Part shown: positions 41,743 through 56,086 of the stretch, in pieces
Layout of the letters: each line of letters starts with the position of its first letter
Numbering within the stretch: the first letter of the stretch is position 1
DNA from: Clostridiales bacterium
GTDB taxonomy: Bacteria; Bacillota; Clostridia; Oscillospirales; Oscillospiraceae
Direction of reading: 5' to 3'
DNA length: 64,000 nucleotides
Assembly: GCA_012719035.1 (NCBI GenBank)
Contig: JAAYBD010000042.1
Span: 1-64,000 of the forward strand
The notes under the pieces: model-generated
The model's database searches: none
Told to the model about the DNA's origin: nothing
Seen by the model: only the letters and a program-made list of their open reading frames with translations
Translations under genes and position numbers: made by a program

Positions 41743-42780
41743 ATGAAAAAGAACAAACTGACCATTGCACTGTGCCTTGTATTGGCACTGGCTCTGTTGG
41801 GCGGCTGCGCTCAGAAAGCCGCATCGCCTACAGATATTTCCGGAGACACAGTCTCCTCCGCGATTCCGTCGCCTGAGCAGGTTAAGGTGGCAGTAGCCGG
41901 TTTAGCAGGTCCCACCTCTATAGGAATGATAAAAATGATTTCCGAAAAGGCGATGAACAGCGAAGAGTATGCGGTAAACTATGAAGTTGCTAACGCACCC
42001 GATGTCCTTACGGGAAAGCTGATAAGCGGCGAAATCCAGATAGCGGCGCTGCCTACTAATGCCGCATCGGTGCTTTACAACAAAACAGAAGGACAGGTTC
42101 AGTTCCTTGCACAGAACACGCTCAGCGTCCTCTACCTTGTCGGAAAAGATGCGGCAGGTGTTTCCTCAATTAAGGACTTGGAGGGAAAAAACCTTGCTTT
42201 GAGCGGCAGCGGCAGTGTTCCCGAGTATGCCGTACAATACATTCTTGACAAAGCGGGAATCAAGGATTCCGTAACTCTCAATTTTTTGACAGACCACGCT
42301 TCCGTTGCGCAGACGCTGCTTGCAGGCGATGCGGAGCTTGCGATACTTCCACAGCCCTTTGTTACACAGGTTCTCTCAAAGAATGCGGATATGAAGATCC
42401 TGCTTGAAATCAACAAAGAGTGGGATAAGGCATCTGAGGGAAACAGCGTTCTCTCTATGGGCTGCCTTGCTGTACGCAAGGATTTTGCAGATGCAAACCC
42501 CGAATTTATAGCCGAGTTCTTAAAACAATATGAAGCTTCCGTAAAATTTGTTAACGAAAATCCGAAGGAAGCAGCTCAAATGGTGGCTGATGCAGGTATT
42601 ATCGCCTCTGCCGAAGTCGTTGAAAAGGCGATACCTTATTGCAACATAGTTTACAAAAATGCACAGGATGCAAAGACGGAGATAAACGGATTTTTGCAAG
42701 TGCTTTATGATTTTAGTCCGGCGTCTGTAGGAGGAAAGCTGCCTGATGACGGCTTCTACTACGAATCGGTCAAACAGTAA
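41743..42780 (+). CDS. ABC transporter substrate-binding lipoprotein (NMT1/SsuA-like)
   Basis: Lipobox LLGGC; IKDLEGKNLALSGSGSVPEYAVQYILDKAGI...LPQPFVTQVL typical of SsuA/TauA/THI5-like SBPs. Confidence 0.88.
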   Translation: MKKNKLTIALCLVLALALLGGCAQKAASPTDISGDTVSSAIPSPEQVKVAVAGLAGPTSIGMIKMISEKAMNSEEYAVNYEVANAPDVLTGKLISGEIQIAALPTNAASVLYNKTEGQVQFLAQNTLSVLYLVGKDAAGVSSIKDLEGKNLALSGSGSVPEYAVQYILDKAGIKDSVTLNFLTDHASVAQTLLAGDAELAILPQPFVTQVLSKNADMKILLEINKEWDKASEGNSVLSMGCLAVRKDFADANPEFIAEFLKQYEASVKFVNENPKEAAQMVADAGIIASAEVVEKAIPYCNIVYKNAQDAKTEINGFLQVLYDFSPASVGGKLPDDGFYYESVKQ

Positions 42781-42781
42781 G

Positions 42782-43561
42782 ATGAAGGGCGAGAAAGCCA
42801 ATTTGTCCCGACCCGCCTTCGCCATATGGCGAAGGCGGGTATTGGTAGTTATTTTGTGGACAGCAGTCTGGGAAATAATGTACCATATTATTGGCAGGGA
42901 CATCTACTTTCCATCGCCCCTGTCCACAGTACAGACCTTTTTCGCCCTGATAACGGAAAAGGCAACATGGTCGACTATTGCGTACAGTGCATACAGGACG
43001 CTTTTTGCTCTTTGCGCTTCTGTGCTTTTGGGGATACTGTTCGGCATTGTCTGCGGACTGAGCCGCACGATGTATAACATTTTCAATCCCCTTGTCGTGG
43101 TTCTGAAATCCACACCCGTCGTATCTGTTATCATAATTGCTATAATATGGTTCCACTCTACCTATGTGCCTGTTTTTTCGGGGTTTTTGATGTGCTTTCC
43201 AATCGTATTCACAGGAACCGTAGCCGGAATCCGAAACACAGACCCAAAGCTTATAGAGATGTGCAGGTTTTACAAAGTCGGGCGTTTCGATACTTTGCGT
43301 TCCCTGTATCTGCGTTCCTCTGTGCCGTACATTAACGCTTCAGTCGTTTCCGCTATCGGTATCTGCTGGAAAGCTGTTGCGGCGGCAGAGGTTTTAAGCA
43401 TGCCTGTGTTTTCGATTGGTGCGAAGCTTTATTTTGCAAAAACCTATCTTGATCCGGCTTCGCTTTTTGCGTGGACATTCATCATAATACTTCTGAGCTA
43501 CTTTTTCGAAACAATTTACGCTAAGGTGTCGGGATATGATAAAACTGGAAAATATCAGTAA
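42782..43561 (+). CDS. ABC transporter permease (SsuC/TauC-like)
   Basis: Multi-TM, STIAYSAYRTLFALCASVLLGILFGIVCGLS...AAAEVLSMPVFSIGAKLYFAKTYLD. Confidence 0.88.
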   Translation: MKGEKANLSRPAFAIWRRRVLVVILWTAVWEIMYHIIGRDIYFPSPLSTVQTFFALITEKATWSTIAYSAYRTLFALCASVLLGILFGIVCGLSRTMYNIFNPLVVVLKSTPVVSVIIIAIIWFHSTYVPVFSGFLMCFPIVFTGTVAGIRNTDPKLIEMCRFYKVGRFDTLRSLYLRSSVPYINASVVSAIGICWKAVAAAEVLSMPVFSIGAKLYFAKTYLDPASLFAWTFIIILLSYFFETIYAKVSGYDKTGKYQ

Positions 43562-44261
43562 AGAATACGGCGGCAAGAATCTGTTTTCAAATTTTTCAGC
43601 CGAGTTTGAGGAGCACAGGGTTTCCTGCATCCTTGGAGCTTCCGGCGTGGGGAAAACAACGCTCATAAATTTTCTTGCAGGGCTGGTCACACCCGACAGC
43701 GGCAGGATAAATTTTTCGTCTGATACACCGCTGCGTGCTTCCTATGTTTTTCAGGAGCCGAGGCTTTTGCCTTGGTATAATGTTCATGACAACCTTGACC
43801 TTATTCTGAGGAATGCGCGTCCTCTAAGCAATGGGAAAAAAGTGAACAGACAAAAACTATACACAAAAGAAGAGCGTGCAAAACTTATAAAGCAGCAGCT
43901 TCGCCTCGTGGGTCTTGAAGATTACGAGTTCTCTGCGATCTCCGAGCTTTCGGGCGGCATGATCCAGAGAGTGGCTCTTTGCAGGGCGTTTTTGTATCCC
44001 GCTGATATCCTCTTGCTGGACGAACCTTTCAAAGGACAGGACACGAGACTCAAGGAAGAACTGTACGAGACATTTTTCCGCTCATATGAAAATGACAGCA
44101 TGCGCCGAACGGTGCTTTTTGTAACGCATGATATATCCGAAGCTCTGCGCCTTTCTGATGCTATCTATGTCCTTTCGGGAAGACCTGCGGGAATTGCTGG
44201 GAAATTTGAGCGCAGGGAATTCGATGAGGACACTGAGAACAAAATAAAAGCATTAATCTAA
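43536..44261 (+). CDS. ABC transporter ATP-binding protein (SsuB/TauB-like)
   Basis: Walker A GASGVGKTTL, signature LSGGMIQRVALCRAFL, Walker B ILLLDEPFKGQD. Confidence 0.93.
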   Translation: MIKLENISKEYGGKNLFSNFSAEFEEHRVSCILGASGVGKTTLINFLAGLVTPDSGRINFSSDTPLRASYVFQEPRLLPWYNVHDNLDLILRNARPLSNGKKVNRQKLYTKEERAKLIKQQLRLVGLEDYEFSAISELSGGMIQRVALCRAFLYPADILLLDEPFKGQDTRLKEELYETFFRSYENDSMRRTVLFVTHDISEALRLSDAIYVLSGRPAGIAGKFERREFDEDTENKIKALI

Positions 44262-44358: not shown

Positions 44359-46116
44359 TTATTCGCCGGAAAAGCGGGATTTTTGGGTGTAGTGGGTGTG
44401 GAGAAGCTCGTGAGCCTTGTGGCTGCCCGGCTTTTCCAGATAGGAGTCGTAAATTTCCTTGAGAATGGGGTTATCGTGGGACTTGCGCATGGCCATATCG
44501 GAATCCTGCGAATAGAGCGCCTTTGCACGCATCGCCTTGAGGTCCACATTGTTGCGAACGCTTGCGGGCTGGAGGGGCTGACCGCCGCCGTTGACACAGC
44601 CGCCGGGGCAGGCCATGACTTCGATGAAGTGGTAGTTCTTTTCACCGCGCTTGATGGATTCAAGAACTTCCTTGGCATTTTTCAGGCCGGAGGTAACAGC
44701 GACGTTGAGCGTTAGGTCGCCGACTTTATAAGTCCTCTCCTTGACAGCGTCCGTGCCGCGGACGTCCGTAAACTCAACGGGAGCATTGGGGTCGCCCGTA
44801 ATCCACTCCGCAGCGGTGCGGAGTGCTGCTTCCATAACGCCGCCGGTTGCGCCGAAGATGACGGCGGCGCCGGTGGAGATGCCGAGAGGATCGTCAAACT
44901 TCTCATCGGGCAGGTTTGCAAAGTCGATGCCCGCGCGCTCGATCATTCTGCCAAGCTCGCGTGTGGTCAGTGCAACATCGACATCGGGAACGCCGTTTAC
45001 AGACTGCTCCTCGCGCTTGCACTCGTACTTTTTCGCGGTGCAGGGCATAATGCTGACCATGAAAATATTCTTCGGGTCAATGCCCAGCTTTTCGGCATAC
45101 CAGCTCTTGGTGAGCGCACCGAACATCTGCTGAGGAGATTTGCATGTAGAGAGATTGTCGATGAACTCTGGATAATAGTGCTCGCAATAGTTTATCCAGC
45201 CGGGTGAGCAGGATGTGATGAGGGGAAGCGTCCCGCCGGTCTTAATGCGCTCAACCAGCTCGTTTGCCTCCTCAACTATGGTGAGGTCTGCGGAAAGGTC
45301 AGTGTCGAACACATCGTCAAAGCCGAGGCGGCGGAGCGCCGCGACCATCTTGCCCTCGACATTCGTGCCGATGGGCATATTGAAGCACTCGCCGAGCGTT
45401 GCGCGGATAGAGGGCGCCGTCTGAACGACAACGCGCTTTTCGGGGTCAGAAAGAGCCGCCCATACCTTGTCCGTATCGTCTTTTTCCTGAAGCGCGCCTG
45501 TGGGACAGGCAACGATGCACTGACCGCAGGAGACGCAGGCGACGGTGCTTAAAGGAGCATCGAAAGCGCTGCCGATGTGTGTGTCGAAACCGCGCTTGTT
45601 GACGCCGATGACCGCAGCGTCCTGAATGTGGTCGCAGACGGCAGTGCAGCGGCGGCAGAGGATACACTTTGAGTTGTCGCGTATCATATGCGTAGCCGAA
45701 TCGTCTATGCTGCTCGGAGTTTTCAAGCCGTCGAATATGGACTCGTCGTCAACGCCGTAGTCCCGGCAGAGTTTCTGAAGTTCGCAGCTGCCGGAGCGTA
45801 CACAGCTCAGACATTCGCGGCGGTGGTTGGAAAGCAGAAGCTGAAGATTTATCTTGCGCGCATCAAAAACGCGTCTGCTGTTTGTGATGACCTCCATGCC
45901 CTCGGCAACGGGGAAAACACAGGCCGCGTTCAGTTTGGGAGAACCCTTGATCTCGACGACGCACATGCGGCAGGCGCCGATCTCGTTGATGTCTTTAAGA
46001 TAACAGAGAGTGGGGATGTCTATATTTGCTTCGCGGGCTGCCTGCAGGATGGTTGAACCTTCGGGTACGGTCACTTTCATCCCGTTTATAGTGAGATTTA
46101 CCATTTTCATTTCCAT
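44359..46116 (-). CDS. hydA: NADH-dependent [FeFe] hydrogenase large subunit (HydA type, group A3-like)
   Basis: 2Fe-2S ferredoxin N-terminus (LCYLKDINEIGACRMCVVEIKG), His-Cys cluster, 2x[4Fe-4S], H-cluster motifs TSCSPGW, MPCTAKKYE, EVMACPGGCVNGGGQ, C-terminal small-subunit-like region. Confidence 0.96.
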   Translation of the reverse strand: MEMKMVNLTINGMKVTVPEGSTILQAAREANIDIPTLCYLKDINEIGACRMCVVEIKGSPKLNAACVFPVAEGMEVITNSRRVFDARKINLQLLLSNHRRECLSCVRSGSCELQKLCRDYGVDDESIFDGLKTPSSIDDSATHMIRDNSKCILCRRCTAVCDHIQDAAVIGVNKRGFDTHIGSAFDAPLSTVACVSCGQCIVACPTGALQEKDDTDKVWAALSDPEKRVVVQTAPSIRATLGECFNMPIGTNVEGKMVAALRRLGFDDVFDTDLSADLTIVEEANELVERIKTGGTLPLITSCSPGWINYCEHYYPEFIDNLSTCKSPQQMFGALTKSWYAEKLGIDPKNIFMVSIMPCTAKKYECKREEQSVNGVPDVDVALTTRELGRMIERAGIDFANLPDEKFDDPLGISTGAAVIFGATGGVMEAALRTAAEWITGDPNAPVEFTDVRGTDAVKERTYKVGDLTLNVAVTSGLKNAKEVLESIKRGEKNYHFIEVMACPGGCVNGGGQPLQPASVRNNVDLKAMRAKALYSQDSDMAMRKSHDNPILKEIYDSYLEKPGSHKAHELLHTHYTQKSRFSGE

Positions 46117-46128
46117 ATCCTCCTCTCC

Positions 46129-47916
46129 TTATCTTTTTGAGACTGCGGCAAATTTGCAGCTGTCGATGCAGGCGCCGCACTTTATGCACTTTTCAGTGTC
46201 GATTACATGTGCCTTCTTGACCTCGCCTGTGATGGCGGATGTCGGGCAGTTGCGTGCGCAGAGCGTGCAGCCCTTGCACTTGTCGGGGTCGATGTAGAAG
46301 CTGAGCAGCTTCTTGCAGACGCCGGCGGGACAGCGCTTGTCGACCACATGTGCCTCGTATTCATCGCGGAAGAAGCGCAGTGTTGACAAAACGGGGTTCG
46401 GAGCAGTCTGTCCGAGACCACAGAGGGCGTTTTCCTTGATGTAGTAGCAGAGACTTTCCAGCCTGTCCAAATCTTCAAGCTCCGCCTGCCCGGAGATGAT
46501 GTTGTCGAGCATTTCGAGCATGCGGCGTATGCCGATGCGGCAGGGAGTGCACTTTCCGCAGCTTTCGTCAACGGTGAATTCGAGGAAGAACTTTGCGATG
46601 TCGACCATGCAGTTGTCCTCGTCCATGACGATCATTCCGCCGGAACCCATGATGGAGCCGATGGCAATCAGGTTGTCATAGTCGACTGGCACGTCCATGT
46701 GCGCCGCAGGGATGCAGCCGCCGGAGGGACCGCCGGTCTGTACTGCCTTGAACTTCTTGCCGTTGGGTATGCCGCCGCCGATCTCCTCAACGATTTCACG
46801 CAGGGTGGTGCCCATGGGGACTTCGACAAGACCCGTGTGGTTTATCTTTCCGCCAAGCGCAAACACCTTGGTACCCTTGGATTTCTCCGTTCCCATGGAT
46901 GCAAACCAATCTGCACCGTTTAGGATTATGCAGGGAATATTGGCATATGTTTCGACGTTGTTGATGATGGTGGGCTTGCCGAAAAGTCCCTTGACCGCGG
47001 GGAAGGGAGGACGGGGACGGGGGTCGCCGCGTTTGCCTTCGATGGAGTTCAAAAGGGCTGTTTCCTCGCCGCAGACGAAGGCGCCTGCGCCCAAGCGTAT
47101 ATCTACATCGAAGCTGAAATCTGTTCCGAGAATGTTTTTGCCAAGGAGTCCCGCTTCTCTTGCCTGCTCGATGGCGATTTTAAGGCGCTTGACGGCGATG
47201 GGGTACTCCGCGCGGACATAAACATAACCGTAGGATGCACCTATCGCGTAACCTGCAATCGCCATAGCTTCGAGAACGCTGTGCGGGTCGCCTTCAAGAA
47301 CGCTGCGGTCCATAAAGGCGCCTGGGTCGCCCTCGTCGGCGTTGCAGCAGACGTATTTCTCGTCTCCGGACTGAGCCGCGGCAAAACTCCACTTTTTTCC
47401 GGTGGGGAAGCCGCCGCCGCCGCGGCCGCGCAGTCCGCTGTCGGTGATCGTCTTTATAACATCTTCCGGCTTCATCTCGGTAAGAGCCTTGGCAAGTGCC
47501 ATGTAGCCGTCATATGCTATGTATTCTTTGATGTTTTCTGGGTCTATTATTCCGCAGTTGCGCAGGGCAACGCGTTTTTGTTTGCGGTAGAAGTCTGTCT
47601 TATCCAAACTGAGGATGGTGTCTTCGGCGACCGTTTCGCTGTAAAGGAGACGCTTTACAAGCCTGCCCTTGAGCAGATGCTCCTCAACGATTTCTTTTAT
47701 ATCCTCAAGCTTTACCTGAGAATAAAAAGCTCCTTCGGGGTATACGACAACAACGGGACCCAGCGCGCACAGACCGAAGCAGCCTGTCTGTATGACCTTT
47801 ACTTCTTCGCTGAGGCCGGCGGAAGCCAGTTCGGCTTCAAAACGATCGAAAAGTTTGTCGCTTCCGGAGGAATGACAGCCGGTACCGCCGCAAACGAGGA
47901 CATGTGAGCGAACCAT
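46129..47916 (-). CDS. hydB: NuoF-like NADH-binding hydrogenase subunit (HydB)
   Basis: 2Fe-2S thioredoxin-like N-terminus, GLRGRGGGGFPTGKKW, GAGAYVCGEETAL-type motif (GAGAFVCGEETALLNSIEGKRGDPRPRPPFP), ESCGKCTPCRIG, C-terminal 2x[4Fe-4S]. Confidence 0.96.
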   Translation of the reverse strand: MVRSHVLVCGGTGCHSSGSDKLFDRFEAELASAGLSEEVKVIQTGCFGLCALGPVVVVYPEGAFYSQVKLEDIKEIVEEHLLKGRLVKRLLYSETVAEDTILSLDKTDFYRKQKRVALRNCGIIDPENIKEYIAYDGYMALAKALTEMKPEDVIKTITDSGLRGRGGGGFPTGKKWSFAAAQSGDEKYVCCNADEGDPGAFMDRSVLEGDPHSVLEAMAIAGYAIGASYGYVYVRAEYPIAVKRLKIAIEQAREAGLLGKNILGTDFSFDVDIRLGAGAFVCGEETALLNSIEGKRGDPRPRPPFPAVKGLFGKPTIINNVETYANIPCIILNGADWFASMGTEKSKGTKVFALGGKINHTGLVEVPMGTTLREIVEEIGGGIPNGKKFKAVQTGGPSGGCIPAAHMDVPVDYDNLIAIGSIMGSGGMIVMDEDNCMVDIAKFFLEFTVDESCGKCTPCRIGIRRMLEMLDNIISGQAELEDLDRLESLCYYIKENALCGLGQTAPNPVLSTLRFFRDEYEAHVVDKRCPAGVCKKLLSFYIDPDKCKGCTLCARNCPTSAITGEVKKAHVIDTEKCIKCGACIDSCKFAAVSKR

Positions 47917-47928
47917 AATACTACCTCC

Positions 47929-48300
47929 TTAATTCGCGTTGGCGCCGATGGTATATTCAACCACAGGATTGCCGTTTACTACGTGCTGTGCAACGATCTT
48001 GGGAACTTTTTCGGGCGTGACGTATACATAGGTGGTCTTTGTTCCGTCGGCATCATAAATCTCGACCACCGGCTCAAACTGACAGATGCCGATGCAGCCG
48101 GTTTGAGAGACAACGATATCGGTAAGCTTGCGGGTTTCGAGCTCTTTGACAAAAGCGGTAAGTACGGGGCGGGCGCCTGCCGCGATGCCGCAGGTTGCCA
48201 TGCCGACGAGGATTCTCATGCGGTATTCGCCGTCTTTGCGTACGCCGATTTTTGTCTTCATCTCGTCGCGCAAAGCCTGAAGTTCTGCTAAAGTCTTCAT
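47929..48300 (-). CDS. Stand-alone [2Fe-2S] thioredoxin-like ferredoxin of the hydrogenase operon
   Basis: ATCGIAAGARPVLTAFVKEL and SQTGCIGICQFEPVVEIY cysteine pattern. Confidence 0.88.
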   Translation of the reverse strand: MKTLAELQALRDEMKTKIGVRKDGEYRMRILVGMATCGIAAGARPVLTAFVKELETRKLTDIVVSQTGCIGICQFEPVVEIYDADGTKTTYVYVTPEKVPKIVAQHVVNGNPVVEYTIGANAN

Positions 48301-48365: not shown

Positions 48366-48917
48366 TCAGCGACCGGTGAAAAGATCACTTGTGTTTTCCG
48401 CCAGAAAGTCGCGGATGAATTTAGAAACCTTGGGATCGTTCAATTCGATCCCCTCAAGTATACGGCGGAATTCGCGCGTATCCAGAATCATCTCGGAGTC
48501 TTCAAAGCGGCGCCTGTATATAAAGTCTATCTGCGGATTGCAGTGGATGAGCGTACAGATAGTCTCGTTGATGTCTCCAAGCGGCATCAGGTCTATGCTT
48601 GAACGAACGAAATAAGCTGTGATGACTGTGCCTTTTCCGATGCTGCTCCGGATATCCATTTTGCCGCCGGCAAGCTCCGCTGCCATTTTGAAAAACGGAA
48701 GACCTAAACCGACTTTTCTGGTGTTTCGCGTAGTGAAAAACGGATCGGCTGCATTTTTAAGCTGCTCGGGGCTCATCCCGCAGCCGTTGTCGGAAATCTC
48801 TATGGTCAGCAGGTCTTCTGCGGGCTGCTCGTCGATAGTGATTTCGACAAGGCTCGCCCCTGCGCGAACGGAGTTTTCCGCCACATCCAATATATTCATG
48901 GAAAGCTCCTGCATCAT
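48366..48917 (-). CDS. Stand-alone GHKL/HATPase_c ATP-binding protein
   Basis: NILDVAENSVRAGA (N box), IEISDNGCGM (G1), GLGLPFFKMAAELAGGKMDIRSSIGKGT (G2/G3); no DHp phospho-acceptor helix. Confidence 0.85.
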   Translation of the reverse strand: MMQELSMNILDVAENSVRAGASLVEITIDEQPAEDLLTIEISDNGCGMSPEQLKNAADPFFTTRNTRKVGLGLPFFKMAAELAGGKMDIRSSIGKGTVITAYFVRSSIDLMPLGDINETICTLIHCNPQIDFIYRRRFEDSEMILDTREFRRILEGIELNDPKVSKFIRDFLAENTSDLFTGR

Positions 48918-48939: not shown

Positions 48940-49431
48940 CTATTCGCATTTTTCGAGGATTCCGTCTATCTGGTCCGGGGTGACCTTTCCGTATACATTG
49001 TCATTGATGCTGAAAACAGGAGCGAGTCCGCAGGCGCCCACGCAGCGGCAGGCGTCAAGTGAAAACTTGCCGTCGGGCGTGCAGCCGCCGTCTTCGACGC
49101 CGAGCTTTTCCTTGATCTTATCATAGATTTCTCCCGCACCCTTGACGTAGCAGGCTGTTCCGAGACAAACCGAGATCGCATATTTGCCTTTGGGATTGAA
49201 AGAAAACTGGGAATAAAAGGTTGCAACACTGTAAACTTTTTCTGCAGAGACATGGAGTTCAGAGGCTATTACGTTAATGACCTCTTGGGGCAGATAGCCG
49301 TAGATTTCCTGTGCGGCCTGCAGTATCTGGACTAGCGAATGATCTCCCTGCAAGGCCGCGATGCTCTCGCGCAGCTTTTTGTCCTGCTCCGCTGTTCCGA
49401 TCACTGCAGTTTCGCATGTTTTGCATGACAT
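48940..49431 (-). CDS. hydC: NuoE-like [2Fe-2S] hydrogenase subunit (HydC)
   Basis: LVQILQAAQEIYGYLPQEVINVIASELHVSAEKVYSVATFYSQFSF...CLGTACYVKGAGEI...CRCVGACGLAPVF. Confidence 0.95.
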   Translation of the reverse strand: MSCKTCETAVIGTAEQDKKLRESIAALQGDHSLVQILQAAQEIYGYLPQEVINVIASELHVSAEKVYSVATFYSQFSFNPKGKYAISVCLGTACYVKGAGEIYDKIKEKLGVEDGGCTPDGKFSLDACRCVGACGLAPVFSINDNVYGKVTPDQIDGILEKCE

Positions 49432-49505
49432 TTGCGTTTCCTCCTGTTTTATTTGTTATTGATTACCTGCTGCCGGGAAAAATAATAGCAGCGGCTTCTT
49501 TCTAA

Positions 49506-49539
49506 TATTGTAATTGTGCCATTATTGTAATTGTACCAT
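49506..49539. repeat. Tandem 17-bp repeat upstream of the hydrogenase operon
   Basis: TATTGTAATTGTGCCAT (49506-49522) then TATTGTAATTGTACCAT (49523-49539), 16/17 identical; ATTGTACC recurs at 49599-49606. Confidence 0.8.
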
Positions 49540-49823
49540 CTGAAGATACGTTTTACCATAGTAAATTCTTGCTTTTTCAACATACCTTGCTTTGTATGAT
49601 TGTACCGTAAAACAAAGTATGATATAATATCTCAAATAAAAACTATATTTTATCTGGCCTATGTGCCATAAAGCTGCCTTGCAGCTGTGACATAATGTCC
49701 GCAAGTGATCACTATATTTGACCTTGATCCGTAAGTGTATGTTAGCTGCGGGTTTTGGCAGGGAACATTCAAATACAGCTTTTAAAATCCTGCAATCACA
49801 TTTTGAATTACGGGGGAACAAAT

Positions 49824-50177
49824 ATGCTTATAAAGGAAATCCGGGATACACTGGATGCAGAACTCCTTGTGGGTGAAGATCTGCTGGAAACAGAAGTTCA
49901 CACCGCCTGCGGAAGCGACATGATGAGCGACGTTCTTGCCTTTGTCAAAGATCAGGCTGTCCTCATTACGGGACTTTTGAACCAACAGGCAATAAGGACG
50001 GCGGCGATGATGGACATGGTCTGTGTTGTTTTTGTGCGGGGAAAGAGACCCGGCGAAGACATTCTTCAGGTAGCCAGAGAAAACGGAATTGCAGTCATGG
50101 CGACAACCCATAGAATGTTTACTGCCTGCGGTCTGCTTTACGAGGCGGGACTTAACGGAGGGTGTAAGACGATATGA
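49824..50177 (+). CDS. DRTGG-domain protein
   Basis: LDAELLVGEDLLETEVHTACGSDMMSDVLAFVKDQAVLITGLLNQQAIRTAAMMDMVCVVFVRGKRP; typical of DRTGG proteins near hydrogenase genes. Confidence 0.75.
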   Translation: MLIKEIRDTLDAELLVGEDLLETEVHTACGSDMMSDVLAFVKDQAVLITGLLNQQAIRTAAMMDMVCVVFVRGKRPGEDILQVARENGIAVMATTHRMFTACGLLYEAGLNGGCKTI

Positions 50178-50614
50178 GCGATATGAGCGGTAACAGCCTG
50201 CATTATCACTATATAGTGCCCGGAGATGATTTTACTCAGGCGGGCGCGGCTTCAAGTGCTGTGAAGCAAATATTGAAACAGCTGGGTTTAAATCCGCAGA
50301 CTATAAGAAAAATGTCGATCTCCTTATATGAGGGGGAAATAAACATGGTCATACATGCCGGCGGCGGGGAGATTGACGTCGATATTGACGACAAAAAAAT
50401 CGTTGCTGTACTTACAGATTACGGTCCCGGAATCGAGGATGTCGATCTTGCCATGCAGGCCGGCTGGTCAACTGCTTCCGAACAGGTTCGGGGTTTGGGA
50501 TTTGGAGCAGGTATGGGTCTGCCGAATATGAAAAAGTATTCCGATGAGCTAATAATAAACACAACAGTCGGTGCAGGTACTAAAGTTACCATTGTGGTGA
50601 ATATAGAAAACTGA
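50174..50614 (+). CDS. RsbW/RsbT-like ATP-binding (anti-sigma/serine kinase-like) protein
   Basis: SLYEGEINMVIHAGGGEIDVDIDDKKIVAVLTDYGPGIEDVDLAMQAGWSTASEQVRGLGFGAGMGLPNMKKYSD. Confidence 0.85.
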   Translation: MSDMSGNSLHYHYIVPGDDFTQAGAASSAVKQILKQLGLNPQTIRKMSISLYEGEINMVIHAGGGEIDVDIDDKKIVAVLTDYGPGIEDVDLAMQAGWSTASEQVRGLGFGAGMGLPNMKKYSDELIINTTVGAGTKVTIVVNIEN

Positions 50615-50635
50615 CGTAACATATGGAGGTTAGAA

Positions 50636-51958
50636 ATGTCCGAATATTTTCACTCCGTAACGCTGGATAAGGATGCCTGCCGCGGATGTATCACCTGCGT
50701 AAAACGATGTCCGACGGAGGCTATACGTGTGCGCAACGGAAAGGCGCAGATCACCGGAGAGCGGTGTATAGATTGCGGCGAGTGTATCCGCGTCTGCCCG
50801 CATCATGCGAAACTTGCCGTTACGGATCCGCTTAGTTCGATAGAGCGCTTTAAATATAAGGTCGTGCTTCCTCCTCCGTCCCTTTTCGGGCAATATAAGC
50901 GGCAGGAGGACCTTGAGCTTATACGCGCTGCGCTGCGCAGACTCGGATTTGACGAGGTATATGAAGTGGCGGCAGCGGCAGAGCTTGTTTCGGATGCTAC
51001 CCGGCGCCTGATGGAACAGGGAACTCTGAATAAACCGGTGATTTCGTCCGCCTGCCCCGCCGTTCTGAGACTTATCCGTATTCGCTTTCCGCAGCTGCTG
51101 GAAAACGTGCTTCCTCTTTCCGCTCCTATGGAGGTTGCCGCCAGACTGGCGCGCGATCAGGCTGTTTCGGAAACGGGACTGAAGCCGGAGGAAATCGGAA
51201 TAGCCTTTATCACTCCCTGTCCTGCCAAGGTTACCGCTATAAAAAATCCGATGGGTACGGAAAAGAGCAGCGTGGACCTTGCGATTTCTGTCAGCGAAAT
51301 ATACCCGGCACTGTTGTCGGCAATGAATAAATGTGCCAAGGAGGGGACTGGACCGGATACCGCGCAGAGCGGACGGACAGGACTGAGCTGGGGCAACAGC
51401 GGCGGTGAGGCGGCGGCTACCTTCACAGTTCGTTATCTTGCGGCGGATGGCATCGAGAACGTGATAAATGTGCTGGAGGAAATGGAGGGCGACCGACTTT
51501 CCGATCAGGACTTTGTGGAGCTTAACGCCTGCCCCGCAGGCTGCGTGGGCGGAGTACTTAACATTGAAAACCCTTATGTTGCAGCTACAAGAATGAAGCA
51601 TCTCCGCAATTATCGTCCGGTGGCATGCAACAACATAGAGGGGAAAGCAATACCGGAGGAGATACTTTGGGATGCTGAGGTTAAGCCTATATCAGCCCTG
51701 CGCCTTGACCCTCTGCCCCAGCATTCTATGAAAATGATGCGTGAGATCGAGGAGATAGAGTCAAAACTTTACGGGCTGGACTGCGGCTCCTGCGGAGCGC
51801 CGTCCTGCCGTGCGCTTGCAGAGGATATAGTGCTTGGACACTCGACCGAGGATGCCTGCATCTACCTCCTGAAAGACAAAGTCGAGGCTGTTCGGGCAAG
51901 TATGCTGTCTCTGAAGCTTGACAGCCGGGATAAAAGCGGGGATAAACCATGCGTGTAA
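50636..51958 (+). CDS. HydS-like putative sensory [FeFe] hydrogenase: 2x[4Fe-4S], H-cluster domain, Fe-S (PF04060-type) domain
   Basis: CRGCITCVKRCPTEAI, CIDCGECIRVCPHHA; divergent H-cluster motifs SSACPAV, TPCPAKVTA, ELNACPAGCVGGVL; C-terminal LDCGSCGAPSCRALAEDIVLG...DAC. Confidence 0.88.
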   Translation: MSEYFHSVTLDKDACRGCITCVKRCPTEAIRVRNGKAQITGERCIDCGECIRVCPHHAKLAVTDPLSSIERFKYKVVLPPPSLFGQYKRQEDLELIRAALRRLGFDEVYEVAAAAELVSDATRRLMEQGTLNKPVISSACPAVLRLIRIRFPQLLENVLPLSAPMEVAARLARDQAVSETGLKPEEIGIAFITPCPAKVTAIKNPMGTEKSSVDLAISVSEIYPALLSAMNKCAKEGTGPDTAQSGRTGLSWGNSGGEAAATFTVRYLAADGIENVINVLEEMEGDRLSDQDFVELNACPAGCVGGVLNIENPYVAATRMKHLRNYRPVACNNIEGKAIPEEILWDAEVKPISALRLDPLPQHSMKMMREIEEIESKLYGLDCGSCGAPSCRALAEDIVLGHSTEDACIYLLKDKVEAVRASMLSLKLDSRDKSGDKPCV

Positions 51959-52284
51959 ATGATTTATGTGAAAAGCTTGGATGGGAGCTTGTCCACGGCG
52001 ACGGTGAACGGGAGATAACGGGCGGCATTTACTGCTGCGACCTGCTGTCTATCGTCATGGGAAGAGCACCCTCGGACAGCCTTTGGATAACGGTTATGGG
52101 CAATGTCAACGCCATGGCTGTGGCAGCCCTTGCCGATACCGCCTGCGTTGCTGTGGCAGAGAATATGCTGATTGACGACGAAGCGATTGCGGGAGCAAAA
52201 AAGGGGAACGTCACCGTAATTCGCACAGGTCTGCCGGTTTTTGAGTCTGCAATGGCTGCGGCAAGGCTTTTAGGGCTTAACTGA
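51949..52284 (+). CDS. DRTGG-domain protein
   Basis: LCEKLGWELVHGDGEREITGGIYCCDLLSIVMGRAPSDSLWITVMGNVNAMAVAALADTACVAVAEN. Confidence 0.8.
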   Translation: MRVNDLCEKLGWELVHGDGEREITGGIYCCDLLSIVMGRAPSDSLWITVMGNVNAMAVAALADTACVAVAENMLIDDEAIAGAKKGNVTVIRTGLPVFESAMAAARLLGLN

Positions 52285-52304
52285 TTATTGCAAAACAAGG
52301 GGGG

Positions 52305-53036
52305 ATGAGTGTGCCGCGATATGCGTATGATCTGCATATCCATAGCTGCCTTTCGCCGTGCGGCGATGAGCTTATGACCCCTCCGAACATAGTAAACATG
52401 GCCTGCATAAAGGGACTTGATATCATAGCTGTTACCGACCATAACAGTGCACTCAATGTTCGTGCGGTTATGCGTGCGGCGGAAGGGCTTCCTCTGACGG
52501 TGATCCCCGGAATTGAAGTGACAAGTGCCGAGGAAATACACGTGGTATGCCTGTTTCCCGATGCAGACAGCGCGGAGGAGGCAGGAGCGGAGCTGGAACG
52601 CCATATGATGCCGGTTCAAAATCGGCCTGAATTTTTTGGAGAACAGGTAATAATGGATGAAAACGAAGTGGTGACCGGTCATTTTCCGCTGCTGCTTCCA
52701 AACGCGCTGGATTTATCGATTGATAAGCTGCCCCAGTTTATTGAACGCTTCGGCGGGATTTGCTATCCCGCTCACATCGACAGGCAGTCGAACAGCATTT
52801 TGTCAGTGTTCGGATTCCTTCCCGATATGCCTAAATTTTCTGCGCTGGAGATCCATGATCCGGAACGATTCTTCATGGACAAGGCTAACGGCAATTACAG
52901 CAAAAACCATATTATCATTACTTCATCCGATGCACATCAGCTTACCGGCATTTCGGAACGCGAGCACTTTATTGAGCTTGACGCACCGACATTTTCCTCT
53001 TTGCGGAAAGCTCTGTGCTGCCGCATAGAGGGGTAA
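52305..53036 (+). CDS. PHP-domain metal-dependent phosphoesterase
   Basis: YDLHIHSCLSPCGDELMTPPNIV, DIIAVTDHNSALN, VIPGIEVTSAEEIHVVCLF, ITSSDAHQLTGI. Confidence 0.92.
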   Translation: MSVPRYAYDLHIHSCLSPCGDELMTPPNIVNMACIKGLDIIAVTDHNSALNVRAVMRAAEGLPLTVIPGIEVTSAEEIHVVCLFPDADSAEEAGAELERHMMPVQNRPEFFGEQVIMDENEVVTGHFPLLLPNALDLSIDKLPQFIERFGGICYPAHIDRQSNSILSVFGFLPDMPKFSALEIHDPERFFMDKANGNYSKNHIIITSSDAHQLTGISEREHFIELDAPTFSSLRKALCCRIEG

Positions 53037-54213: not shown

Positions 54214-55518
54214 TTATTTCTGGATCTGTGAACCAACCCAGTTCTTCAGACCTCCTGTTACGGAATCAAAGGAATAGGAATATTCTAAATCTCCCGATTT
54301 GAAGTTTACTTGAGATTCGGAATTTGCTTCATTCGTACCGAGATTGACGTTTACATCGCGTGCATAAGAGGCATCGGTTCCGGACATATCAATAGCCTTT
54401 TTTATTAAATCCTCAGCAGCAGCTTTTGCCGCCTCGGCACTTTGTCCATCGGGGGAAGGAACAGGAGTGTTTCCCACGGGGGAGTTATCTGTTCCTATAC
54501 CGTTCTCAACCGCCGATTTAAGCGTGTTTACCCCTCGCTTCAGTATCTCGCCGGTTTCGGCATCGACACCGTAATAAAACTCGGAATTTTCCGTGGTCAT
54601 TTTCACATTATAGACAAGCTTGCCGTTCTCATAATCCATCTGCGATTCCACTTTTGCCGCACCATCTATGGAGAGCTTGGCATGTGCCTCTGCATTGGAG
54701 GCAGCCATATCGGCCCCAATATATTTTTTGTCGCTGGGCGTTCCCATCATGGTGAGCCCTTCAAGCTGTCCTATCCACTTTTTAGCTATCAGGCTAAGAT
54801 CATTGACATTGAGCTTTGAAAGCTCTTCCAGAGAAAGCGAAGGATCCTTTTCGATGATGCTCTTTATAAGATTTGCCTTACCCTCGGAAATTCCAAGCTC
54901 CCCGGCAAGCTGCTTGAGCGTTTCATCGTTTTTACCTTTCATACCAAGGATAGCGCCGTCGATACCATTTTCGCTAAGAGCCTTGTTTACGGTTTCTGTC
55001 AGACGTTTTTCAAGATCCTCTGTTTTTTCAGAGTCGTCATTTATAACGGATACGAGTATGGAGTTTGCAAGCTCACTGACGTAGCCTTCTTCCACCAAGG
55101 AATTTGCAAGCTCACTTGCCGCATCCTCAAGCTTCATTCCTTTCAGGTCCATGCCTTCGAGGATTTTCTTTCCGTCTTCGTTCAGAGCTATGGCATCAAT
55201 TATCGATTCGGCCTTATTTGCGCTCAGCTCGATGCTGGGGTTGACATCCATCGTAACTACGGTGTCAACGGCATGGGCAAGATTGTATTGACCAATTCCA
55301 AAAGCTCCGCCGGCTACAAGAACCAGCGCCGCCGCAGTGGCGCATAAGGGTTTAATCCATTTTTTACTGTTTTCTGTCTTTCTTTTGCTTATCATTTCGT
55401 TCATCCCGATAATACTTCCTTTCCGTACTTCACAACGGGAGAGGATATTATCGAGGACGTCCGGTACCGAAGCTTCTACTGCATCTTTAAGTTTTCTTTC
55501 GATATCAAGATCAGTCAT
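54214..55518 (-). CDS. Putative anti-sigma factor with RsgI-like extracytoplasmic domain and PepSY-like repeats
   Basis: Single TM (PLCATAAALVLVAGGAFGI), then VDTVVTMDVNPSIELSANKAESIIDAIALNEDGKKIL (RsgI-like); C-terminal PepSY-like (YNVKMTTENSEFYYGVDAETGEILKRG). Downstream of the ECF sigma gene, 1-nt spacing. Confidence 0.78.
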   Translation of the reverse strand: MTDLDIERKLKDAVEASVPDVLDNILSRCEVRKGSIIGMNEMISKRKTENSKKWIKPLCATAAALVLVAGGAFGIGQYNLAHAVDTVVTMDVNPSIELSANKAESIIDAIALNEDGKKILEGMDLKGMKLEDAASELANSLVEEGYVSELANSILVSVINDDSEKTEDLEKRLTETVNKALSENGIDGAILGMKGKNDETLKQLAGELGISEGKANLIKSIIEKDPSLSLEELSKLNVNDLSLIAKKWIGQLEGLTMMGTPSDKKYIGADMAASNAEAHAKLSIDGAAKVESQMDYENGKLVYNVKMTTENSEFYYGVDAETGEILKRGVNTLKSAVENGIGTDNSPVGNTPVPSPDGQSAEAAKAAAEDLIKKAIDMSGTDASYARDVNVNLGTNEANSESQVNFKSGDLEYSYSFDSVTGGLKNWVGSQIQK

Positions 55519-55519
55519 A

Positions 55520-56086
55520 TCATTTCCCCTCCTTCAAGGTGTTTTTCAGCTTTTTGAGAGATCTGCTGTACTTGGAAAGAACGGTTGAAAGAGGCAGGGA
55601 CATCAAATCCGCGATTTCTTTATGCTTAAGACCGGATACGGCATAGAGCATTACTATCTGCCGTTCCTCTTCTGTCAGCGTTTTCATCGCCGCGCTGAGC
55701 ACGATTCTATCATCGGAACTAACAGACGGACTGTCTGCCTGAAAAAGCAGCCATTCATCCTCTGGAATATCCGCGGATTTGCCGCGTTCGCGCAGTCTGC
55801 TTGTCGCGAGGTTCTTAGTGATGGTCAGAATCCATGCCATTGGTTTTCCCATCGGACTGTAGCTTTCAGCCGATGACCAAAGCTTTAGATATGTATCCTG
55901 CAAAACGTCCTCTGCGTCACTCACGTTCTTTAAAATGGACAGGGCAAAGCCATAAACAGCCGTTTTCGTTTCACCGTAAAGCTCTGCCAGGGAGTTTTTA
56001 TCACCGGCGGCTATTTGGGCGATGTGTTTTTCAATCGGCAGCTTAGCAGTCTTGACATTTTGTTTGGTAGACGTCGTTCCAATCAT
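55520..56086 (-). CDS. RNA polymerase sigma factor, ECF/sigma-70 family
   Basis: YGFALSILKNVSDAEDVLQDTYLKLW (region 2), TEEERQIVMLYAVSGLKHKEIADLMSLPLSTVLSKYSRSLKKLK (region 4). Confidence 0.93.
   Translation of the reverse strand: MIGTTSTKQNVKTAKLPIEKHIAQIAAGDKNSLAELYGETKTAVYGFALSILKNVSDAEDVLQDTYLKLWSSAESYSPMGKPMAWILTITKNLATSRLRERGKSADIPEDEWLLFQADSPSVSSDDRIVLSAAMKTLTEEERQIVMLYAVSGLKHKEIADLMSLPLSTVLSKYSRSLKKLKNTLKEGK

Follow-up and report, generated by a model that had tools for sequence, protein, structure and literature searches.

We analyzed a 64,000-nucleotide stretch of a Clostridiales bacterium genome (contig JAAYBD010000042.1, positions 1 to 64,000; hereafter, the window), in which a five-gene cassette, DRTGG1-HATP-HydS-DRT2-PHP, occupies positions 49824–53036 of the plus strand, with a complete hydABC operon of group A6 running divergently from it. 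A preliminary description of this DNA had placed five open reading frames (ORFs) in this interval, all of which we found, and its view that a non-prototypical HydS-type [FeFe] hydrogenase is packed there with signalling proteins near hydABC is supported by our analysis. We propose, with middling confidence, that a conserved cytoplasmic cassette for redox signalling is present here in its H2-sensing version, with a putative relay from HydS to the adjoining enzyme complex. This proposal draws on the conserved gene order, on gene fusions, on the intact active-site residues of the ATPase (HATP) and of the PHP protein, and on a stand-alone histidine-kinase-type ATPase (hkHATP) that also occurs in cassettes lacking HydS. 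More tentatively, HATP-DRTGG1, DRT2, PHP, hkHATP and a set of exchangeable sensors may form an undescribed class of redox-signalling module in Bacillota that acts post-translationally on HydABC or Rnf.

Conservation of the cassette and its versions without HydS

Loci were sampled from the same order (40), from a named set (80) and phylum-wide at about one per family (40); most lie on contigs of metagenome-assembled genomes (MAGs), and ORFs were called mechanically. When counts of adjacent partners were restricted to loci with 3 kb on each side (36, 54 and 34, respectively), HATP was the immediate upstream neighbour of HydS in all 124, an adjacency that is not due to chance. The order DRTGG1-HATP-HydS-DRT2-PHP recurred in all three samples, and a strict rule found all four HydS partners in 29/36 order-level, 50/54 named and 21/34 phylum-wide loci; several of the misses are gene fusions or gene-start artefacts of the mechanical ORF calling, and others are real losses. 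In the order-level and phylum-wide sets, hydC-hkHATP-2Fe2S-hydB-hydA mostly came next on the same strand. Near relatives often share the window's divergent layout, which was complete in 21 of the 80 named loci. DRTGG1 and HATP genes overlapped by a median of 4 bp over 149 loci and were fused into one ORF in four (L199, L200, L269 and L276).

Independent searches of the same 399 genomes of the phylum found HATP in 171 and HydS in 164, and comparison of the two lists by eye gave 163 shared genomes, eight with HATP only and one (G297) with HydS only. We set this last case aside: G297 is a fragmented MAG, and the contig of one HydS copy, L271, breaks off right next to it (20166 of 20252), which makes the missing HATP probably an artefact for that copy. 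Several variant loci were also observed. In family f50, L272, L273 and L274 carry a second HydS copy in a reduced module with DRT2, 2Fe2S, HydC, HydB and HydA and without DRTGG1, HATP and PHP. An additional group C-like HydS gene (ORFs of 331–767 aa) lies inside the group D cassette locus of L198, L204, L208 and L210, and in L196 and L197 HATP-HydS, preceded by DRTGG1 in L197, adjoins a gene that reads as CheW-like, without DRT2 and PHP.

HATP-only genomes and second HATP copies led to cassettes that lack HydS. In L260, L263, L264, L266 and L267 the arrangement is DRTGG1-[CBS-CBS-HATP]-DRT2-PHP-hkHATP; Pfam confirmed the CBS pairs of L260, L264 and L266 (1.5e-29 to 7.8e-32). In L261 and L262 DRTGG1-[CBS-HATP]-2Fe2S is followed by an Rnf operon. 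The CBS-HATP fusion may have arisen once or several times: the HATP tree puts the fused proteins in up to three weakly supported places. Rnf adjoins four cassettes (L225, L261, L262 and L264); that of L225 is a complete HydS cassette ahead of Rnf, in a genome where hydABC, with an hkHATP of its own, lies elsewhere (L277). L265 has DRTGG1-HATP next to Rex and NfnAB-like genes, and Rex directly adjoins the cassette on the same strand in nine loci (L188, L198, L199, L200, L265, L266, L267, L269 and L276; the Rex assignment was checked with Pfam in two of these and in one more distant locus).

Because CBS domains replace HydS in some cassettes and others adjoin Rnf, Rex or NfnAB-like genes, the cassette tracks ferredoxin/NAD redox systems and not hydrogenase alone. 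The cascade centred on H2 and hydrogenase that had been suggested from the window is right in its signalling genes around HydS and incomplete in its scope. The sensors of the module may be exchangeable, an [FeFe] hydrogenase serving for H2 and a CBS pair probably for adenine nucleotides.

HydS and its partner proteins

HydS (50636–51958, plus strand; 440 aa; Fe_hyd_lg_C, 4e-34) is a putative H2 sensor, to which Pfam assigns a pair of [4Fe-4S] motifs at the N terminus, an H-domain, and an FeS domain at the C terminus. The preliminary description had recognized four H-cluster-type cysteines, an alanine ahead of the first of them and an added C-terminal Fe-S domain, and each of these features was confirmed: the cysteines are C140, C195, C299 and C303, all invariant in the HydS alignment, Ala139 replaces the group A cysteine C299 (CpI numbering), and the C-terminal motif, C383-x2-C386-x4-C391-x16-C408, is an exact Cx2Cx4Cx16C. 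The position of Ala139 is occupied by alanine in 44 of 47 HydS relatives and by serine in three. This domain plan, the alanine and the terminal motif are shared with TamHydS (PMC8163306, PMC10407848, PMC13104023), as is the E252/E289/D265/S249 path (TamHydS numbering). The numbering was transferred via the HydS of L189, which matches 10 of 11 published TamHydS positions without a shift, and gives A139=A137, S255=S249, E258=E252, D271=D265, E295=E289 and C383=C379; the M353 position holds Ser/Thr, T193 in the window. Across the 47 sequences E252, E289 and C379 are present in all, D265 in 46 and A137 in 44; the weaker positions E122 and K126 are not conserved among the HydS sequences compared.

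Pfam gave no PAS match in HydS, which ends shortly past its C-terminal FeS domain. In a tree of 41 proteins, which contained no sequence identified by name as TamHydS, the 25 HydS rows formed a single clade (100/100) separate from group A HydA, and the closest neighbour of this clade was a group C-like clade, itself separate. From its sequence we assign HydS to group D (M2e), the TamHydS type, and not to the Thermotoga-type group C, on account of the absent PAS domain, Ala139, the Cx2Cx4Cx16C end, the group D proton-path residues and the separate clade. Comparison with groups C and D, which had been suggested as a check, thus recovered the group D features and not the C-terminal PAS domain of group C; the likeness to Thermotoga HydS noted earlier holds for the alanine substitution, which is common to groups C and D (PMC10407848), and not for the group. 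HydS probably senses hydrogen.

Some HydS frames carry irregularities. An in-frame TGA in L019 and L020 was considered as recoding and rejected, since the open frames, of 421 and 420 aa, extend about as far as the match; it is most likely an ordinary stop plus alignment overrun. Stops or a shift interrupt the HydS frame in G230 C1:3082608-3083884 (L275) and G147 C79:14235-15535, which suggests recent loss or sequencing error; in L275 the remainder of the cassette and hydABC are present around it.

The claim that the cassette contains two DRTGG proteins proved right, for DRTGG1 via Pfam and for DRT2 via profile and fold. DRTGG1 (49824–50177, plus strand) is a single-domain protein of 117 aa (PF07085, 2e-9) whose gene overlaps that of HATP by 4 bp; its AlphaFold2 (AF2) model (mean predicted local confidence, pLDDT, 90.6) matches 2ioj in Foldseek with a TM-score of 0.79. 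DRT2 (51949–52284, plus strand; 111 aa), whose gene overlaps that of HydS by 10 bp, has no match in Pfam or NCBIfam. By profile and predicted fold it is a true, divergent DRTGG protein: its family aligns to the DRTGG1 family with an hhalign probability of 98.5%, its profile gives most DRTGG1 proteins 41–77 bits, and its AF2 model (pLDDT 97.9) has as its top Foldseek match 2ioj, the AF1212 DRTGG protein (TM-score 0.81), and also matches the CBS-DRTGG region of a Clostridium perfringens pyrophosphatase. D32, S35 and T49 of DRTGG1 are invariant or nearly so in cassettes with and without HydS. S35, invariant in both cassette types, sits where a helix is predicted to begin and is matched in DRT2 by S34, also invariant; it is a candidate acceptor site or, alternatively, a structural residue of the DRTGG fold. 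We dropped a reading of DRTGG1 as an Fe-S or metal protein because, when more sequences were sampled, not all of them kept its cysteines (C29 in 62/73, C67 in 44/73).

HATP (50174–50614, plus strand; 146 aa; HATPase_c_2, 1.8e-10) is a SpoIIAB/RsbW-like ATPase and a candidate Ser/Thr kinase. Like the SpoIIAB/RsbW partner-switching kinases it has a Bergerat fold with the catalytic Glu and Mg-ligand Asn: when aligned to SpoIIAB (1til), E53 corresponds to catalytic E46 and N57 to the Mg ligand N50, and both are invariant. PHP (52305–53036, plus strand; 243 aa; Pfam PHP, 4.6e-8) is a metal-dependent phosphoesterase and candidate phosphatase whose nine metal ligands (H11, H13, D45, H46, E71, H79, H157, D209 and H211) are invariant in 21 sequences.

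A second ATPase had been reported in the opposite operon and tied to the same cascade. This gene, hkHATP (48366–48917, minus strand), was confirmed there by Pfam (HATPase_c, 2e-17) as a stand-alone ATPase of the histidine-kinase type; like Acetobacterium woodii HydE, it carries a conserved extension at its C terminus. It is a member of the signalling module, because it comes after PHP in the five CBS-CBS-HATP cassettes, which lack both HydS and an adjoining hydABC.

Proposed working of the module and alternative explanations

In the mechanism that we propose, H2 or reduced ferredoxin would set the state of HydS, which, docked to DRT2 and HATP, would alter an ATP-dependent activity of the DRTGG1-HATP pair. 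The physical pairing of DRTGG1 and HATP is supported by their gene fusions. HATP might then phosphorylate or switch a DRTGG partner, PHP would reset that partner, and hkHATP would carry the state to the adjoining enzyme complex, HydABC here and Rnf in relatives, such that ferredoxin/NADH oxidation is tuned to H2 pressure. Control through protein interaction or phosphorylation is more likely than control through a dedicated transcription factor, since the cassette encodes neither a transcription factor nor any other DNA-binding output. TamHydS is reported to change its secondary structure on H2 (PMC13104023), and H2 does not reduce the cluster at its C terminus (PMC8163306, PMC13104023).

Several points weigh against this proposal. 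The ties among the cassette proteins are predicted from sequence and gene context, in loci collected mostly via HydS homology, and the cassette encodes neither an output domain nor a substrate of the STAS or sigma-factor kind. TamHydS is catalytically reversible, though slow (PMC8163306). DRT2 or PHP is absent in some lineages (L204, L206–L208), and the second HydS copies of L272–L274 have DRT2 without DRTGG1 and HATP; not every part of the cassette is therefore obligatory. Nor is co-transcription with hydABC implied in the window, where cassette and operon diverge.

The cassette might instead be mainly a sensor of nucleotides or energy charge, in which DRTGG and CBS domains read adenylates or dinucleotides and HydS is an optional redox input. 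The CBS-CBS-HATP fusions of the HydS-less cassettes favour this idea, as does the C. perfringens pyrophosphatase (3l2b/3l31, which ranks high in the Foldseek results), in which DRTGG accompanies adenine-nucleotide-binding CBS domains; we nevertheless consider it unlikely, because HydS is present in 163 of the 171 sampled genomes that bear HATP, making H2/redox input the rule. A further step down in probability is a view of HydS as a redox valve or a slow hydrogenase of metabolism, with the small ATPases and DRTGG proteins serving in assembly, maturation or repair of HydS and HydABC. TamHydS does catalyse reversible H+/H2 conversion, and a study of Acetobacterium woodii HydE left 'assembly or signalling' open for that protein (PMC3315566). 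However, these ATPases, DRT2 and PHP are also present where HydS is missing from the cassette and near Rnf or Rex, and apo-TamHydS produced in Escherichia coli was activated by a synthetic cofactor without any cassette partner (PMC8163306).

Two transcriptional outputs were also weighed. SpoIIAB is the best curated relative of HATP (NCBIfam; PDB 1til), which would fit an anti-sigma factor that acts on a sigma factor encoded elsewhere, with output through RNA polymerase. Yet HATP falls short of the NCBIfam spIIAB equivalog cut-off (54 vs 135 bits), no sigma or STAS gene was seen in the cassettes, and HATP, in contrast to SpoIIAB and RsbW with their sigma and STAS anti-anti-sigma partners, is tightly paired or even fused with DRTGG1; we regard this output as improbable. 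Output via Rex, the NADH/NAD+-sensing repressor, is suggested by the nine loci in which Rex adjoins the cassette, but most loci, the window included, have no adjoining Rex, and a search with one strict Rex-type consensus found no match in the intergenic regions of 32 divergent loci, again including the window; we hold it to be very improbable.

If the H2-sensing redox module proposed here is real, control of H2 production and of ferredoxin/NADH balance in fermenting and acetogenic Bacillota could be tested directly on a set of five or six proteins, all small and soluble. The signal output of group D sensory hydrogenases without PAS domains was stated as an open question in PMC8163306, and the cassette names likely partners of HydS: DRTGG1-HATP, DRT2, PHP and hkHATP. 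Cassettes with CBS in place of HydS offer a natural sensor-swapped control.

Related systems and gene surroundings

The core idea, sensory hydrogenase genes near bifurcating hydrogenases and kinases, is not new, as it was published in 2012 (PMC3561251) and 2020 (PMC8163306). The earlier paper has a table of group D clusters (e.g., Athe_1292 with Athe_1297-1299) in which the sensory gene is upstream of a bifurcating hydrogenase and 'often separated by a histidine/serine kinase', an association that our loci share; the cassette as a unit, its DRTGG proteins, PHP and the HydS-less versions are not described there. The later paper noted the neighbours of TamHydS, which, like HydS here, is found near a trimeric group A hydrogenase and a histidine-kinase-like ATPase; it names that ATPase and an AraC regulator as flanks, and not the DRTGG pair or PHP, and the window differs from it in that HydS is divergent from hydABC. 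Group C loci (Thermotoga TmHydS, Thermoanaerobacterium saccharolyticum hfs, with HfsB, and Ruminococcus albus HydS) likewise place a sensory-type [FeFe] hydrogenase amid signalling genes, and other hydrogenases are expressed less when hfs genes are deleted (reviewed in PMC8924675; see also PMC11837493), but group C hydrogenases carry a PAS domain, those of hfs have a partner resembling serine phosphatases, and group C-like sequences form a clade separate from HydS of the window. The gene for A. woodii HydE, for which an assembly or signalling role was considered possible (PMC3315566), lies within a hyd operon and is apparently the same gene as hkHATP; unlike HydE, hkHATP is also found outside hyd operons, in the signalling cassette.

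Searches for DRTGG with hydrogenase, or for hydrogenase with CBS, HATPase, PHP or Rnf, did not find the module in a literature coverage that mostly excluded subscription papers, and since that coverage is incomplete we cannot claim priority for describing the cassette. The features not found in the literature searched were the constant place of HATP directly upstream of HydS, the usual order of the four partners, the DRTGG1-HATP fusions, the HydS-less CBS version, and the Rnf, NfnAB-like and Rex neighbours.

The hydC-hkHATP-2Fe2S-hydB-hydA operon is complete and runs away from position 49431 on the minus strand. HydC, the NuoE-like [2Fe-2S] subunit (48940–49431; 2Fe-2S_thioredx, 8.6e-50), is followed beyond hkHATP by a small 2Fe-2S thioredoxin-like protein in the HydD position (47929–48300; Pfam, 1.4e-5), a position conserved among relatives, by HydB, the NuoF-like flavin subunit (46129–47916; Pfam and NCBIfam), and by HydA (44359–46116), a group A6 NADH-dependent [FeFe] hydrogenase of the bifurcating type (NF040763, 911.6 bits against a cut-off of 765). 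Between the starts of hydC and DRTGG1 lie 392 bp (49432–49823), in which promoter and terminator scans stayed near shuffle level. This region contains a head-to-tail 17-nt repeat, TATTGTAATTGTRCCAT, at 49506–49539 (16/17 identical), which we rejected as a conserved promoter or operator because it was not seen in the nearest relative, L078.

By reading, NitT/TauT-like ABC transporter genes at 41743–44261 are convergent to the hyd operon, and adjacent minus-strand genes at 54214–56086 resemble an RsgI-like anti-sigma protein and an ECF sigma factor. Two further hydrogenase loci were noted in the same genome. One (L037; G000 C45, 6066–11371) is hfs-like and encodes a 563-aa group C-like hydrogenase that keeps the cysteine (ISSCCP), a Rex-like protein, a 424-aa SpoIIE/PP2C-like protein and a 474-aa HydA-like protein, with Rex, PP2C and PAS assigned by reading. 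The other (L036; G000 C21, 3435–8313) encodes a fifth protein resembling [FeFe] hydrogenases (367 aa, TSCCCP) near genes that read as two 2-hydroxyacyl-CoA dehydratase subunits and a LysR regulator.

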